This document shows, piece after piece, positions 2,216 through 8,227 of a stretch of DNA of 64,000 bases. Numbering within the stretch: the stretch's first letter is position 1; each line of letters begins with the position of its first letter. Where the stretch lies: the NCBI RefSeq assembly GCF_016027715.1, contig NZ_CP065691.1, forward strand, positions 682,001-746,000. The letters run 5' to 3'. Under the pieces are notes generated by a model. That model was not told the origin of the DNA. It did not search any database and saw only the letters and a program-made list of their open reading frames with translations. The DNA comes from Lactococcus garvieae. GTDB taxonomy: Bacteria; Bacillota; Bacilli; Lactobacillales; Streptococcaceae. The position numbers and the translations under genes are program-made.

Positions 2216-2809
2216 ATGGAAAATAAAAATTTTTTAGATACAATAAGTAAAAGTACAATTGAGACAGCAAAAAGTCTACTAGGAATGAGACTCTTATGGA
2301 AAAGAGATGGTGAGACTCAAATTCTTGGCAATATTGTCGAAACCGAGGCCTATCTTGGCACTCTCGATAGTGCATGCCATAGTTTTAATGGTAAAAGAAC
2401 ACCTCGAAATGAATCTATGTATCTTTCTTCTGGACACTGGTATGTGTACCAGATTCATGGTCACTTTATGTTAAATCTAGTAACTATGGGGGAAAATGAG
2501 CCAGAGGCCGTTTTAATTCGTGCAGTTCAATCACATATTCCGACAATGGATGTTAGTGGACCTGGAAAATTAACCAAAGCATTTGGAATAACTAAAGCGT
2601 TAGATGGGCAACATTTTACTGACTCAACTTTAACTTTGGAAACAGATAAAATTCCAAAAGAAATAGTAAGCCGAAAGAGGATTGGAATAACCTGTACGGA
2701 TGAATGGAGAGATGAACCCTTGGGGTTTTATGTAAAAGGAAACTCTCAAGTTTCTCGAATCTCAAAAAAAGAAATTCTACAGGATGATTTGAAGACCTGG
2801 AAAGAGTGA
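2216..2809 (+). CDS. 3-methyladenine DNA glycosylase (AAG/MPG type)
   Basis: 197 residues of the AAG/MPG family, which removes alkylated or deaminated purines by base flipping and starts base excision repair. The family core is visible: ETEAYLGTLDSACHSFNGK (the glutamate activates water for glycosidic cleavage), RTPRNESMY, then the NLVT and EAVLIRA strands. Length is typical of bacterial members. The ATG at 2216 has a rather distant GAGAGG upstream. It stands alone between terminators at 2012 and 2955. Confidence 0.88.
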   Translation: MENKNFLDTISKSTIETAKSLLGMRLLWKRDGETQILGNIVETEAYLGTLDSACHSFNGKRTPRNESMYLSSGHWYVYQIHGHFMLNLVTMGENEPEAVLIRAVQSHIPTMDVSGPGKLTKAFGITKALDGQHFTDSTLTLETDKIPKEIVSRKRIGITCTDEWRDEPLGFYVKGNSQVSRISKKEILQDDLKTWKE

Positions 2810-2954
2810 TTAATTTTAGCCAATCTTTCTCCATATTTCAAAATCGTCCCCGAAGCTTTTGGAGTAATAAATAGGAGGTGAAATACCTAAATCTCCTTAA
2901 AGTTGTGTCTCTGCTAGAATAAAACCACATACTATTTTGGAAAAATAAAATCAT

Positions 2955-2990
2955 AAAAAGCTCTCCGCAAACATTGCGGAGAGCTTTTTA
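2955..2990 (+). terminator. Rho-independent terminator after the DNA glycosylase gene
   Basis: Long perfect stem AAAGCTCTCCGCAA / TTGCGGAGAGCTTT with a 3-base loop and a T tract. It isolates the glycosylase gene from the accessory Sec operon downstream. Confidence 0.92.
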
Positions 2991-3073
2991 TGTGTAGATA
3001 AATAGTAGTACCTTTTATACAAAAATAAAAAGGCTAAAATGAGACTAAAAGGTAGTTTAATCTATCAAATGTT

Positions 3074-3104
3074 TGTCAATAAAATTTAGGTTTTTCGGAC
3101 ATAT
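3074..3104 (-). repeat. Left dif-like inverted repeat upstream of secA2
   Basis: Bases 3074-3099 form a 26-bp inverted repeat, with one mismatch, against 3296-3321. Read on the minus strand, the 31-bp window contains TCCGAAAAAC and AATTTTATTGA and matches about 24 of 31 positions of the streptococcal/lactococcal dif consensus as I recall it. It sits between the glycosylase terminator and the adhesin-export operon. It could be a remnant recombination site, one end of an invertible segment, or the end of a small non-autonomous element; there is no obvious target duplication. Confidence 0.55.
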
Positions 3105-3288
3105 CCTAGAGTATTTTATATAGAATACCTGATGTTTTTATACATATTCAATTACTATGTACAAAAAAGAACGTTTCTATAATATACTTATTTAATTTTC
3201 AAGTCAAGTAATTCGACTTATTTTATTTTATCATAAAAAAATAAAATTTTATTCACATATTTAGGGGGAATTAGTAGATGTTTCTCGT

Positions 3289-3294
3289 TATAAT
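3289..3294 (+). promoter_or_regulatory. Candidate -10 box for the secA2 operon
   Basis: A perfect TATAAT lies 46 bp upstream of the secA2 ATG, just inside the right arm of the inverted repeat. No good -35 hexamer is seen at the expected spacing, so the promoter is weak, activator-dependent or elsewhere. If the segment between the repeats inverted, this element would point away from secA2. Confidence 0.4.
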
Positions 3295-3321
3295 CTCCGA
3301 AAAACCTAAATTTTACTGACA
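3291..3321 (+). repeat. Right dif-like inverted repeat upstream of secA2
   Basis: Partner of the repeat at 3074-3104. It carries TCCGAAAAACCTAAATTTT and then ACTGACA, in the same orientation as the true dif at 22379-22409, matching roughly 20-21 of 31 positions. It overlaps the candidate -10 box of secA2. Confidence 0.5.
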
Positions 3322-3339
3322 TATTATAAATAAATAGAA

Positions 3340-5679
3340 ATGAATAAAATGAGATACACTAAAATATTAAAAAAAGTGAATCAACTATCTCCCGTGATGG
3401 CTGGTAAAACAGATAGTCAATTAGAAGAGATTGCTTTGTCAATAAAAAAATCTACTGAATTAAAAGAAAAACGGGATAAAGTAATGATTGAAGCATTTGC
3501 TTTAGTAAGGGAAGTAGATAAAAGAATTTTGGGACTTTATCCAACAAACGAACAAGTTTACGCAGCTATTGCAATTTATTTTGGAAATATAGTTGAGATG
3601 AAAACGGGTGAAGGGAAAAGCTTAGTAGCAACAATGCCCTTGTATTTGAAAGCTCTTTATGAAGGAACTGTATTTTTAATTACTACAAATGATTATTTAG
3701 CTAAACGAGATTTTTTGAAGTTTTGCAAAGTATATGAATACCTTGGTTTAAAGGCGGCGGATGGGACTAATGAGGCTGAAGAAGCAGAATTTAATTTTAC
3801 GAGAAAAAAGCAAATATACTCAGCAGATATTGTATATCTTTCTAACTCAACTTTTGGATTTGACTTTTTGATTAATGGTCTTGTTGAAAGGCAAGAAGAT
3901 ACCTTCCTTCCTGAGCTAAAATTTGCACTTTTAGATGAAGTAGATGAGATTTTATTAGATAGTGCTCAAATGCCTTTAATTATCTCTGGTGCCCCAAAGG
4001 TACAATCAAATTATTTTCAAATTTCTAATGATTTTATAGAGATACTACAAGAAGAAATTGACTATTCTTTAGATGAAGAGTCAACTAATGTATGGCTCAC
4101 AGAAAAAGGAATCGAAAAAGCGAAACACTATTTTTCAATTCCAAATCTGTTAGAAGTAGAAAACTATCAAATATATCAGCATATTATTTTAGCTTTAAAA
4201 GCGCATCGTATTTTAAAAAAAGAGCGAGATTATCTCGTGGAAGATGGAAAAGTAAAGCTCTTAGATAGAAAAGATGGACGGATTTTAAAGGGAACTAACT
4301 TACAGAGTGGTTTACATCAAGCGGTTCAAGCTAAAGAGAGGGTAGAGATTACTCCTGAAACCCAAACGATTTCTTCTATTACATACCAAAATTTATTTAG
4401 ACAATTTAAGCAAATATCAGGTATGTCTGGTACAGCTAAAGTTTCAGAAGGCGAATTTATTGAAACCTATAATTTACCTGTGAAAAAAGTAAATACACAC
4501 AAAAAAAATATAAGAATTGATTATCCTTCTCAAATATATCCCAATTTTAAATCAAAAACTGAAGCTGTTCTTGCGAAAATACAAGAACTTTACAGTGAAG
4601 GACGTCCTGTCTTAGTTATAACAGGTTCTTTGGATGCATCAGAATTGATTTCAACCCATCTATTAAATCTCGGAATTCCCCATAATATACTAAATGCAAA
4701 AAGCAGCGTTAAAGAAGCACAAATTATAAAAGAAGCTGGGAAAATTAATGCAGTCACTGTTTCAACAGCCATGGCAGGCCGAGGAACAGATATACAAATG
4801 ACCTCAGGTGCTATTCAAAGAGGAGGGTTAGCAGTTATAATTAGCGAACGAATGCCTAATAAACGAATAGAAATGCAAGCTAGAGGACGTGCAGGACGTC
4901 AGGGAGAACCAGGATCTAGTTACTCTTTTGAATCGCTAGAAGATGAGATTGTAAAGCTTTATGTACAAGAAAGTGTTCAGCGATATTACGATCATCATTG
5001 GAAGAGCAATAAGCAAATAAAGAGTAGACGCATTAAACGCTATCTGGAACGAGCACAAAAACTGTCTGAAGACAGAGCTTATACTGAGCGGAAGAAGGCT
5101 TTACAATATGATGAAGTATTAAGATTACAAAAAAGGCAGATAGATCAAGCACGAAGAAAAATCATAGAATTAGAGGATGTTTCCACTGCCTTAAGCATAG
5201 TATCAAGGGTACTCGAAATTGTTATTAATAAAAGTATAGTTGAGGAGAAATTAAATACTTATAGAGAAATAAAGCGATTTATCCTAGATAATATTGATTA
5301 TAATTTCAAAGGTGAGAATGAAAAACATACCAGTTCGGTTGAAGAAGTTTCAATAGTTATCAATGAAGTATTTAAAAATAATATTAAGAAAAAGAAAATA
5401 AGAATTAGAGATGATGAAGCTTTTTTGCAATATTTAAAAATTTCAATTTTGAAAGCTATTGATGTTTCATGGAGCCAACAAGTCGATGCGCTCAATCAAT
5501 TACGCTTTATCGTTCAATCTAGAACAAGCGCACAAAAACATCCCATTTTAGAATACGAGCAGGAAGCGATGAGAAGTTATGATTTGATGCGGAATGAAAT
5601 AACCAAGCTGATTTTGAAAAACGTAAGTTTGAGCTTATTAGATATTAAAAATAGTGAATTAGTGGTTACTTTTCCATAG
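3340..5679 (+). CDS. secA2: Accessory Sec ATPase SecA2
   Basis: 779 residues, shorter than a housekeeping SecA and lacking its C-terminal zinc-binding tail, as usual for SecA2 of adhesin loci. Visible motifs are Walker A MKTGEGKS (87-94), Walker B LLDEVDE (about 197-203), AGRGTD (about 478) and the arginine-finger segment QARGRAGRQGEPGSS (about 513). It powers export of the serine-rich repeat glycoprotein through SecY2 with Asp1-3. It is the first gene of the operon, with gtf3 starting 14 bp after its stop. The start has almost no Shine-Dalgarno; a second ATG three codons later is possible. Identity is firm from motifs and context. Confidence 0.95.
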   Translation: MNKMRYTKILKKVNQLSPVMAGKTDSQLEEIALSIKKSTELKEKRDKVMIEAFALVREVDKRILGLYPTNEQVYAAIAIYFGNIVEMKTGEGKSLVATMPLYLKALYEGTVFLITTNDYLAKRDFLKFCKVYEYLGLKAADGTNEAEEAEFNFTRKKQIYSADIVYLSNSTFGFDFLINGLVERQEDTFLPELKFALLDEVDEILLDSAQMPLIISGAPKVQSNYFQISNDFIEILQEEIDYSLDEESTNVWLTEKGIEKAKHYFSIPNLLEVENYQIYQHIILALKAHRILKKERDYLVEDGKVKLLDRKDGRILKGTNLQSGLHQAVQAKERVEITPETQTISSITYQNLFRQFKQISGMSGTAKVSEGEFIETYNLPVKKVNTHKKNIRIDYPSQIYPNFKSKTEAVLAKIQELYSEGRPVLVITGSLDASELISTHLLNLGIPHNILNAKSSVKEAQIIKEAGKINAVTVSTAMAGRGTDIQMTSGAIQRGGLAVIISERMPNKRIEMQARGRAGRQGEPGSSYSFESLEDEIVKLYVQESVQRYYDHHWKSNKQIKSRRIKRYLERAQKLSEDRAYTERKKALQYDEVLRLQKRQIDQARRKIIELEDVSTALSIVSRVLEIVINKSIVEEKLNTYREIKRFILDNIDYNFKGENEKHTSSVEEVSIVINEVFKNNIKKKKIRIRDDEAFLQYLKISILKAIDVSWSQQVDALNQLRFIVQSRTSAQKHPILEYEQEAMRSYDLMRNEITKLILKNVSLSLLDIKNSELVVTFP

Positions 5680-5693
5680 AAAGAGGATTAAGT

Positions 5694-6701
5694 GTGTTGA
5701 AAAAGTATATTACGAATTTGTATGGACAGAGTGAGAGTAGCACAGCGATGCTAGCACAAAATACAGTAACAAAAATTGCGGAAAATGATGGATACTCTGA
5801 GATTCGTATTCAAGCTTATCCAGTGCAAGAAAGTGATACAGAAGTAGAAAAAGAAAAACGTATTGAAGGAATTTTATCAGGTATCCCAAAAGAAAGTTTA
5901 CTTATTGTACAACTGCCTACGTGGAACGGTATTGCTTTTGATGAAGTGTTTTTAAAAAAAGCTAGAGAAAAAACAAATCATCTCGTTATTTTCATCCATG
6001 ATTTTGTCCCACTCATGTTTGTAAATAATGAATATTTATTTGAGCGTTATTTACTTGCTTATAATTTTGCAGATTTAGTGATTGTTCCCTCTAAAAAAAT
6101 GGAAGAAATTCTACGTGGACGAGGGCTTAACACAGTGACAATAATTCAAAGTATTTGGGATCATATTGTTTCTTTACAACTGGATCACTATCCTCAATTT
6201 TACCGTAAGATTAAATTTATTGGGAATAGTTCAAGGTTTCCGTTTGTAGGAAATTGGAAAAGTGATTTAGAACTAGAAGTATTTAGTCAAGGAAATATAA
6301 AAGCAGATGGGTTTTTAACATTGAAAGGATGGTTACCTGATGATCAATTGTTGAGAGAGCTTAATAGAGGTGGTTTTGGCTTAGTATGGAGTGAAAATAT
6401 TGAGAATCAATATGAAAGGGAATATTCTGAAATGAATGTTTCTCATAAATTTAGCACATATCTAGCAGCTGGTTTACCAATCATAGTAAATAAAGGACTT
6501 GCAAAGGAAGAATTTGTAAGGAAGTATGGCTTAGGTTTAGTAGTGGAAAACTTAGAAGAGGCAATAAATCACGTAAAAACTATGACACCAAGAGAATATC
6601 AAGCTTATATAACAAATGTGAGGAAGGTTTCATATTTAATCAAAGAGGGGTACTTTACTAAACAATTACTCCTTGATATTCAGAAAGAGTTATTTCTATA
6701 G
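5694..6701 (+). CDS. gtf3: Gtf3/Nss-like glucosyltransferase of the adhesin locus
   Basis: 335 residues resembling Gtf3 (Nss), the cytosolic enzyme that adds a second sugar (glucose in Streptococcus parasanguinis) to GlcNAc-modified serine-rich adhesins. The N-terminus KKYITNLYGQ and the later FIHDFVPLMF and LAAGLPIIVNKGLA segments fit the GT-B fold of that family; the last resembles the nucleotide-sugar end of the site. The start is GTG with AGAGG seven bases upstream; a TTG follows immediately. It lies between secA2 and gtfA with 11-14 bp gaps, so it is co-transcribed. The sugar it transfers here cannot be deduced. Confidence 0.85.
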   Translation: MLKKYITNLYGQSESSTAMLAQNTVTKIAENDGYSEIRIQAYPVQESDTEVEKEKRIEGILSGIPKESLLIVQLPTWNGIAFDEVFLKKAREKTNHLVIFIHDFVPLMFVNNEYLFERYLLAYNFADLVIVPSKKMEEILRGRGLNTVTIIQSIWDHIVSLQLDHYPQFYRKIKFIGNSSRFPFVGNWKSDLELEVFSQGNIKADGFLTLKGWLPDDQLLRELNRGGFGLVWSENIENQYEREYSEMNVSHKFSTYLAAGLPIIVNKGLAKEEFVRKYGLGLVVENLEEAINHVKTMTPREYQAYITNVRKVSYLIKEGYFTKQLLLDIQKELFL

Positions 6702-6712
6702 GGGAGCAAGTT

Positions 6713-8227
6713 ATGACAATCTATAACTTTAATTTAGGTATTGGCTGGGCAAGCAGTGGAGTTGAGTATGCCCAAGCATACCGTGCCAATATTTTTCGGG
6801 AAAATGGTCAAAAAGCCAAATTTATTTTTATGGATATGTTTCATGAAAATATTGAGCCAATGACAAAAAATATGGGATTCAAAGATGACGAAATCATTTG
6901 GTTTTATCAGTATTTTACTAATATTACCATTGGTCCTAATACATTTAGCATTGAGAAATTAAAAGAAAGTTTTTCTGGGGCTATTTCTCGCGTAGAAAAT
7001 AAGCAATGTGAAATCGTGTATTATTTTGAGAAACCGCATATGCGATTAACTGCTTATTTAGATAAATATAATCCCAAAATGGTTTATAAAACGGAGATGG
7101 TAGTTAATGGCAACTTGATTCAGAAAGATTATTACACTTCTACTAAGGTTTTTACAGAATATTTCAAACCAGTAAATAATCAAGCTAATCTCTATCAAAG
7201 GCGTTTTTTTAATGAAGACGGTTCAATAGCGTATGAGGAGCTTTTGAATGGAAAAGAGAGCTTGTTTATTTTCCCAGATAAGACAATATATTCTAAGGAA
7301 AACTTGCTTTTATATTTTATGCAATTACTTGAATTAAGTGAAAATGATACCGTCATTTTAGACCGTTCTACTCATATAGGACCCGAAATCTTAAAAGAAA
7401 AAGGAAGGGCTAAAATTGGAGTAGTCATCCACGCGGAACATTTTAATGAGTCCCTCACTAATAAAGAGAAGATTCTTTGGAATAATTATTACGAATATCA
7501 GTTTAAAAATGAAACTAGTATTGATTTTTTTGTCGTAGCAACAAATACACAAAAAACTATTTTAGAAGATCAGTTTTCAAAATATAAAAACCGTAAGATA
7601 AATGTTTATGAAATTCCCGTGGGAAGCCTTGATGAGTTGAAAAAGCAAGTAAAGCGTCAAGAGAATTCTTTGATTACTGCTTCACGTTTGGCTGGAGAAA
7701 AGCATCTTGATTGGCTAGTTCAAGCAGTGGTAAACGCAAAAAAATATATACCTAACCTTACATTAGATATCTATGGCCGTGGAGGAGAAGAGCAAAAACT
7801 AAAAGATTTAATTACAGAATTAGGAGCACAAGAATATATTGTACTAAAAGGACAGCAACAACTTAAAGAAGTTTATAAAAACTATACATCGTATGTTTCT
7901 GCATCAACTAGTGAAGGATTTGGGCTTACTCTTCTCGAAGCAGTTGGTTCAGGTTTAGGGATGGTAGGATTTGATGTTCGTTATGGTAATCAAACCTTCA
8001 TAAAAGAAGGTAAGAATGGATATTTAGCTGACTTTGTAAAAAATGACAGAGAACAAAATATCTTAAATTTAACGCGTGCTATAGTCCAACTTCAGAGAAA
8101 AGAAAAGAGGAACTTAGAGACTGTGCAGCACTATTCTTATAAGATTGCTTCTAAATATTTGACAAAGAATATACAACAAAAATGGTTAGAACTTGAAGGA
8201 GACTTGCATCATGATAAATCTATTTGA
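6713..8227 (+). CDS. gtfA: Accessory Sec O-GlcNAc transferase GtfA
   Basis: 504 residues matching GtfA, the catalytic subunit of the GtfA-GtfB complex that attaches GlcNAc to serine and threonine of the adhesin in the cytosol before export. The N-terminus MTIYNFNLGIGWASSGVEYAQAY is typical. A GT4-type EX7E motif is present as SEGFGLTLLEA (E401 and E409), and DIYGRGGEEQKL lies just before it. GGGGAGC precedes the ATG. Its last 17 bases overlap the preferred start of gtfB, consistent with coupled translation of the two subunits. Confidence 0.94.
   Translation: MTIYNFNLGIGWASSGVEYAQAYRANIFRENGQKAKFIFMDMFHENIEPMTKNMGFKDDEIIWFYQYFTNITIGPNTFSIEKLKESFSGAISRVENKQCEIVYYFEKPHMRLTAYLDKYNPKMVYKTEMVVNGNLIQKDYYTSTKVFTEYFKPVNNQANLYQRRFFNEDGSIAYEELLNGKESLFIFPDKTIYSKENLLLYFMQLLELSENDTVILDRSTHIGPEILKEKGRAKIGVVIHAEHFNESLTNKEKILWNNYYEYQFKNETSIDFFVVATNTQKTILEDQFSKYKNRKINVYEIPVGSLDELKKQVKRQENSLITASRLAGEKHLDWLVQAVVNAKKYIPNLTLDIYGRGGEEQKLKDLITELGAQEYIVLKGQQQLKEVYKNYTSYVSASTSEGFGLTLLEAVGSGLGMVGFDVRYGNQTFIKEGKNGYLADFVKNDREQNILNLTRAIVQLQRKEKRNLETVQHYSYKIASKYLTKNIQQKWLELEGDLHHDKSI

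Follow-up and report, generated by a model that had tools for sequence, protein, structure and literature searches.

Segment 3091–3304 of the stretch analysed here, 64,000 nucleotides of Lactococcus garvieae DNA (the window), is in our judgement probably an inverton that switches the secA2/SRRP operon on and off and is flipped by a tyrosine recombinase, most likely XerS. Inversion at this locus, its effect on expression and XerS as the enzyme are all inferred; directly observed were the repeats, their inverted matched spacers and dif-like arms, the direction of the predicted promoter, a family of such pairs in several genomes and one inverted ortholog. In the proposed mechanism, a tyrosine recombinase, most likely the dimer resolvase XerS, would bind the dif-like arms of two sites, A and B, and cut within their identical, oppositely oriented 6-bp spacers (CCTAAA), whereupon the segment would flip. 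In the sequenced state the predicted promoter would fire leftward, away from secA2 and toward a putative terminator (OFF); after the flip it would lie at about 3188–3216 and face secA2 (ON).

As had been proposed from the DNA letters, secA2 heads the export and glycosylation operon of a large surface adhesin, in which GtfA, SecY2, Asp1, Asp2 and the serine-rich repeat adhesin were identified, and the dif site assigned to 22379 was located there, adjoining xerS. The genes and the dif site are as follows.

3340–5679, plus strand: secA2, first gene of the export operon (NCBIfam secA2, E 1.1e-263; 877 bits, under the 930-bit cut-off)
5694–14558, plus strand: export operon, from the sugar transferase to the Asp3-like gene
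From 5694, plus strand: sugar transferase (model score below cut-off)
From 6713, plus strand: GtfA (model over cut-off)
From 8193, plus strand: GtfB-like (named by position only, no profile scan)
From 9750, plus strand: SecY2 (over the cut-off of TIGR02920)
From 11024, plus strand: Asp1 (model over cut-off)
From 12588, plus strand: Asp2 (model over cut-off)
From 14127, plus strand: Asp3-like (named by position only, no profile scan)
14625–18341, plus strand: serine-rich repeat adhesin with KxYKxGKxW signal and LPXTG anchor
18391–18747, plus strand: small regulator of the Spx/ArsC family (E 1.7e-8, below cut-off), last gene common to the Lactococcus petauri island
22379–22409, plus strand: chromosomal dif site, adjoining xerS
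22442–23503, plus strand: xerS, tyrosine recombinase and leading candidate invertase (XerS model 507.6 bits, cut-off 267)

Inverted arms of 29 nt each, 93% complementary, were found at 3074–3102 and 3293–3321 with 190 nt between them, right before the secA2 start at 3340. The original prediction had described two 26-bp inverted repeats with one mismatch flanking about 200 bp at this place; the 26-nt core with its single mismatch was recovered and the arms extend beyond it. Over the 530-bp intergenic region the best inverted repeat (arms 100–400 apart) had 25 matched positions, and the maximum in 300 dinucleotide shuffles was 15. Each arm can be read as a recombination-like site of the form 11-6-11, and the spacer is identical in A and B in opposite orientation, which satisfies the inverton requirement of inverted sites with an identical crossover region.

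2952–2992, no strand: perfect 19-bp hairpin with A and T runs, likely a two-way terminator (function inferred)
3074–3101, minus strand: left recombination-like site A, read as TGTCCGAAAAA, spacer CCTAAA, TTTTATTGACA
3091–3304, no strand: segment predicted to invert, between the spacers at 3085–3090 and 3305–3310
3179–3207, minus strand: predicted promoter in the segment, −35 TTGACT (3207–3202) and −10 TATTAT (3184–3179), 17 apart
3278–3319, plus strand: 13-codon mini-ORF MFLVIISEKPKFY with AGGGGGA upstream, overlapping site B (read by eye)
3294–3321, plus strand: right recombination-like site B, read as TCTCCGAAAAA, spacer CCTAAA, TTTTACTGACA

Both sites resemble dif, as had been claimed by comparison with a consensus (about 24/31 and 20–21/31 positions). 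Computed against the Lactococcus dif consensus, A matched at 25/31 and B at 22/31; relative to the genome's own dif, the arms of A agreed at 18/22 and those of B at 17/22, with 3/6 spacer positions shared in each case, a degree of spacer identity that should prevent recombination of the switch with dif. When all 31-mers of the window were ranked with a Lactococcus dif matrix, A (25.9 bits) and B (14.1 bits) came second and third after dif itself (47.5 bits), the next reaching 4.8. Of 4.0 million positions in an AT-rich Markov null, 6 reached 13.3 bits and none reached 25 bits. The matrix was built from 13 Lactococcus dif sites, out of 13 xerS-related loci; five of the 18 genomes of the genus (G003, G006, G008, G013 and G015) yielded no dif site by the search expression used. 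A and B lie about 19 kb from xerS and do not meet the expectation that a XerS/dif site adjoins xerS, so they are dif-like rather than dif.

Inside the segment, the best promoter by score (TTGACT-17-TATTAT) is directed away from secA2 (10.3, compared with 5.4 toward it), a value that 2 of 200 shuffles reached; the weights were E. coli-type values. The presence of a promoter within the segment, a further property expected of an inverton, is thus met in silico only, and the window segment apparently stands in the OFF position. The TATAAT reported just inside the right repeat is indeed present (3289–3294), but it lacks a good −35 and the best promoter lies elsewhere, on the minus strand; judged by these motifs, it is probably not the promoter. 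The hairpin at 2952–2992, likely a two-way terminator, would halt leftward transcription in the OFF state. By eye, the mini-ORF has a good ribosome site in the present orientation and secA2 itself has no clear one; inversion would break up the mini-ORF. An Rfam scan of 2400–3900 gave 10 matches, none at the gathering score of its family.

The layout recurs in several Lactococcus genomes as inverted site pairs of the form TTTCCGAAAAA-N6-TTTTTCGGAAA, about 200–470 bp apart with matched spacers, ahead of secA2, WxL, pilus and regulator genes. The arm consensus TTTCCGAAAAA equals the left half of dif; A and B are less symmetric than the palindromic members. A relaxed dif-like pattern was commoner than its reversed control in all Lactococcus genomes except G003, G005 and G013 (15 of 18), and its matches often stood in close inverted pairs among the matches listed, which run to G009. 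With a palindromic pattern that left the spacer free, 48 sites were counted genus-wide, compared with 22 for the reversed control. Seven pairs within 600 bp were present among these 48, counted from the full list, and all seven have inverted matched spacers; they are confined to G001, G007 and G011 and are in part mutually orthologous. Among 34 fetched loci, strict pairs were inverted in 13 cases, with none direct and none unmatched, and looser arms gave 18 inverted, 0 direct and 13 unmatched. The 13/13 is not an unbiased sample, because several of the 34 loci were fetched after two close matches were already known. No two of the six G001 pairs share a spacer. In L127 the sites are 1.1 kb apart, and no pair was found in L207, a guessed ortholog. 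The window's own genome holds a second, weaker pair (C2:59226–59462, spacer CTCAAA) before an Spx-like gene (below cut-off).

Across the family, a stricter palindrome occurred in 70 of 335 genomes and in 3 for the reversed control, mostly once per genome in genus g10 and up to six times in Lactococcus. Many g10 genomes have one palindromic XerS-like site with a recurring spacer such as GACCAA or TAAGTA. An identical 28-mer site, TTTCCGAAAAAGTTTGCTTTTTCTCAAA, single and unpaired, was noted in G000 (on a 26.5-kb contig), G005, G007 and the g10 genome G132 (loci L202, position 3033; L203, position 3164; L204; and L205).

One ortholog pair was found in both orientations. The 400-bp flanks of L170 (G001) and L197 (G011) are collinear, at 90.8 and 92.8% identity, and the interiors are 85.6% identical when one is reversed compared with 60.9% forward; in G011 the interior TTGACA with TATACT is directed at the HTH gene, in G001 away from it. 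Together with the recurrence of the layout across several Lactococcus genomes, this ortholog locus supports the suggestion of an invertible switch. Two other close ortholog pairs share one orientation (97.2 and 91.8%), and for the distant pairs L160/L196 (59.9 vs 50.9%) and L158/L162 (53.8 vs 51.7%) the identities were too close for an orientation call. A comparison of orientation among related genomes had been recommended for the window locus itself; both known copies (2/2) stand the same way and no inversion was seen there. The evidence of both orientations comes from L170/L197.

A clear promoter, with a score that no more than 8 of 200 shuffles attained, was predicted in 15 of 20 interiors; it points away from the operon in 14 and toward it in one, the flipped L197. 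The five without a clear promoter are G004 (its secA2 locus; 92/200 shuffles), L162, L163, L164 and L201; in L161 a toward promoter (9.3) nearly equals the away promoter (10.5). The 20 interiors include four ortholog pairs and represent 16 distinct loci; operon directions were assigned by us from ORF lists, and the L. petauri copies of the two secA2 switches were left out, as were L127 and L126. For 12 of the 14 away-promoter loci ORFs were listed; judged by eye, nine have a convergent gene next to the segment on the side opposite the operon, which leaves the promoter without an evident target as it stands, and in the other three (L160, L196 and L200) a gene does stand in its direction. Read from motifs alone, the predominance of away promoters fits an OFF state. 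This bias, which is unexplained, may reflect laboratory growth.

Genes directly 3′ of the pairs encode SecA2 (L161, over cut-off), WxL and WxLIP proteins, SpaA pilins, an LPXTG protein and HTH regulators. By sequence, L171 and L198 lead into KxYKxGKxW-type adhesins (the Pfam adhesin match of L171 is sub-threshold, and L198 was not scanned), and L201 stands before what we take to be an exopolysaccharide cluster. The HTH genes raise the alternative that A and B are paired operators of a regulator, for example of the XRE type, acting by looping or repression without recombination. Such genes follow the sites in L127 and L170 (over the Pfam cut-off), L196 and L200 (below it), and L164 and L201 (by sequence, no scan), and the L. 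cremoris secA2 locus L126 has a single palindrome, TCCGAAAAATTTAGATTTTTCGGA, just before an HTH gene. Operators, however, need neither mutual inversion nor matched 6-nt spacers that differ between loci, the window operon does not begin with an HTH gene, and the L170/L197 segment is physically inverted between species; we regard this alternative as unlikely.

A second secA2, 62% identical in amino acids to that of the window, occurs in G004 and L. petauri. An inverted dif-like pair (16.1 and 13.4 bits, spacer CCTTAA) lies upstream of it, with arms at −280 and −52, about 200 bp apart, and comprises the best dif-like sites in those loci. Its surroundings are hardly alignable with the window and its two arms face the opposite way to the window's arms; the G004 and L. 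petauri copies share one orientation. A third SRRP operon, on the L. lactis plasmid LB7 unnamed4, has inverted dif-like sites at locus positions 7367 and 8450 (spacer CAAAAG).

Beyond L. garvieae, the segment was found 98% identical and in the same orientation in L. petauri 159469, which carries switch and operon at 98–99% over window 3064–11019; the repeat gene is less well conserved and the right end is 94% identical. Homology begins at 3064, just left of A, at 98.9%, whereas the xerS region is only 81–84% identical between the two; the L. petauri island sits elsewhere, not adjoining xerS, and apparently about 300 kb from it (contig junction inferred). Given this difference in identity and the different place in L. 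petauri, the cassette probably moved horizontally together with its switch, an inference from alignments. The L. petauri island has about 1.6 kb extra between secY2 and asp1 (L046 8007–9630), and past its right end (L059) short plasmid-type repeats and a broken transposase were judged by eye. No phage DNA matched secA2, and a related-loci search seeded with SecA2 returned only two loci. Plasmid records encoding secA2/SecA relatives numbered 134, all below 60% identity, and 32 plasmid records matched the switch region weakly (E up to 10), none over 80% of the region. Plasmid searches for further strains of the invertons and for both orientations within a species gave no match, or only the same record, apart from one 75-base stretch in a Streptococcus plasmid.

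The border at 3064 and the different place of the island would also suit a scar or end of a Xer-mobilised island, with A as the left border of the moved DNA. A and B are inverted, not direct, and could not excise an island, so the directly repeated dif-like ends of a Xer-mobilised element (IMEX) are lacking; the search around the right border (about 18878) turned up no dif-like site, and a pair also precedes the divergent chromosomal secA2. A remnant of dif-mediated integration, one of the alternatives originally offered, likewise leaves unexplained both the matched inverted spacers and the separate pair at the second secA2 locus. We give the island scar very little credence and attribute the border at A to transfer of the operon together with its switch.

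The other alternative originally offered, a dispersed MITE-like element, is suggested by a short segment with terminal inverted repeats and fared worst. The switch region is single copy in its own genome and whole in only 2 of 335 family genomes, both times ahead of the same secA2; the remaining 58 of 60 matching family genomes had short matches only, about 50 bases at most among the matches listed. When 31 sequences, comprising 30 loci and the window's first 6 kb, were compared all against all by blastn (E 1e-8, 60 nt), the interiors of unrelated pairs gave no match to one another. The dispersed copies that define such an element are absent, which excludes it at the sensitivity used and leaves it scarcely credible.

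If the switch is an inverton, as we hold, XerS is the leading candidate enzyme because of the dif-like arms; granting that the switch is real, we lean toward XerS with only modest confidence, by inference and with no binding or deletion data. According to the accessible portion of one report, XerS binds the left half of dif, TTTCCGAAAA, more strongly, and its recombination at dif requires FtsK (PMC5357621). This requirement counts against XerS, set beside the apparent 300 kb or so between the L. petauri copy and xerS. So does the pneumococcal spnIII locus, whose inversions, as far as the accessible text of another report goes, are not driven by XerS (PMC6620402). The window's XerS is 95–96% identical to those of G010 (L. 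petauri 159469) and G004. Alternatively, inversion of the same promoter could be the work not of XerS but of a dedicated tyrosine recombinase (phage-type integrase or XerS paralogue) using dif-like arms, which we consider possible though clearly less favoured. PF00589 matches number 3 to 17 per genome in 10 genomes, and XerS paralogues of 45–66% identity occur in G005, G007, G009, G010 and G012, of which G007 and G009 hold pairs. Against a dedicated enzyme, in G001 and G011, which have the most pairs among the fetched loci as well as the inverted ortholog, no protein other than XerS itself was seen related to it at more than 31% identity (E 1e-3). None of the PF00589 matches has coordinates within a fetched 6-kb locus around a pair; the closest are a XerD-like gene some 4 kb away from the G011 pair and a further match about 5 kb from the G012 pair. 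The XerD-like protein reads GLNFSE by eye where active enzymes carry an arginine. The paralogue loci (L052, L053, L054, L056 and L050) lie beside xerS/dif or on other contigs, some near dif-like sites, and are possibly Xer-encoding mobile elements. The wider proposal that XerS is a master DNA invertase in Lactococcus, with dif half-sites and locus-specific spacers flipping adhesin, WxL, pilus and regulator promoters, possibly tied to FtsK and division, is a conjecture that could fall either way.

The arrangement resembles the invertons of E. coli fimS, Bacteroides and Mycoplasma penetrans in having a promoter between inverted sites ahead of surface genes, and differs in that the Lactococcus sites are dif-like, no invertase gene was found beside the switch and the genus is another. 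The multi-switch enzyme of Clostridioides difficile is RecV, and invertible promoters of that species are not known to employ sites resembling dif. What C. difficile has in common with the Lactococcus family is multiple invertible promoters at separate loci, a single tyrosine recombinase perhaps acting on all of them; pdcB and pdcC are described in the accessible part of a review, which there mentions for Lactococcus only a 600-kb inversion in L. lactis S50 (PMC11868660). Several dispersed loci are likewise reported for Bacteroides and M. penetrans, and a Xer-family enzyme, Xer1, inverts DNA and varies surface proteins at vpma of Mycoplasma agalactiae; unlike the separate promoter switches of Lactococcus, Xer1 is dedicated and rearranges within one gene locus, on the evidence of the accessible text (PMC2268961). 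Compared with XerS/difSL of streptococci and lactococci, as far as the source is accessible (PMC5357621), the family arms match the left half of dif, and in the window the right arm too. The switch sites differ in being paired, inverted, equipped with their own spacers and placed away from xerS before surface operons, with a predicted outcome of inversion, not resolution. No surface-operon promoter inversion in Lactococcus was described in the full-text literature searched; most subscription papers, like the tables of inverton surveys, lay outside reach and may list single loci. If our reading is true, many lactococcal surface operons are switched by DNA inversion, the sampled genomes being mostly OFF, and a housekeeping recombinase may have been co-opted as a switch. 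Dif half-sites with matched inverted spacers offer a simple sequence rule for finding more switches, and the question of XerS acting beyond dif becomes directly testable in laboratory strains.

Around xerS itself, the dif right arm TTGAAA stands 17 nt ahead of TAGAAT (22403–22431) and fits as the −35 of a xerS promoter; TTGAC occupies the position of this TTGAAA in 8 of 13 Lactococcus dif sites. A second inverted pair with a TCCGAAAAAC core (22019–22037 and 22376–22394, 19/19) consists of dif and a partial copy about 360 bp upstream and may regulate xerS; the partial copy at 22019–22037 is conserved ahead of xerS in G004 and L. petauri.
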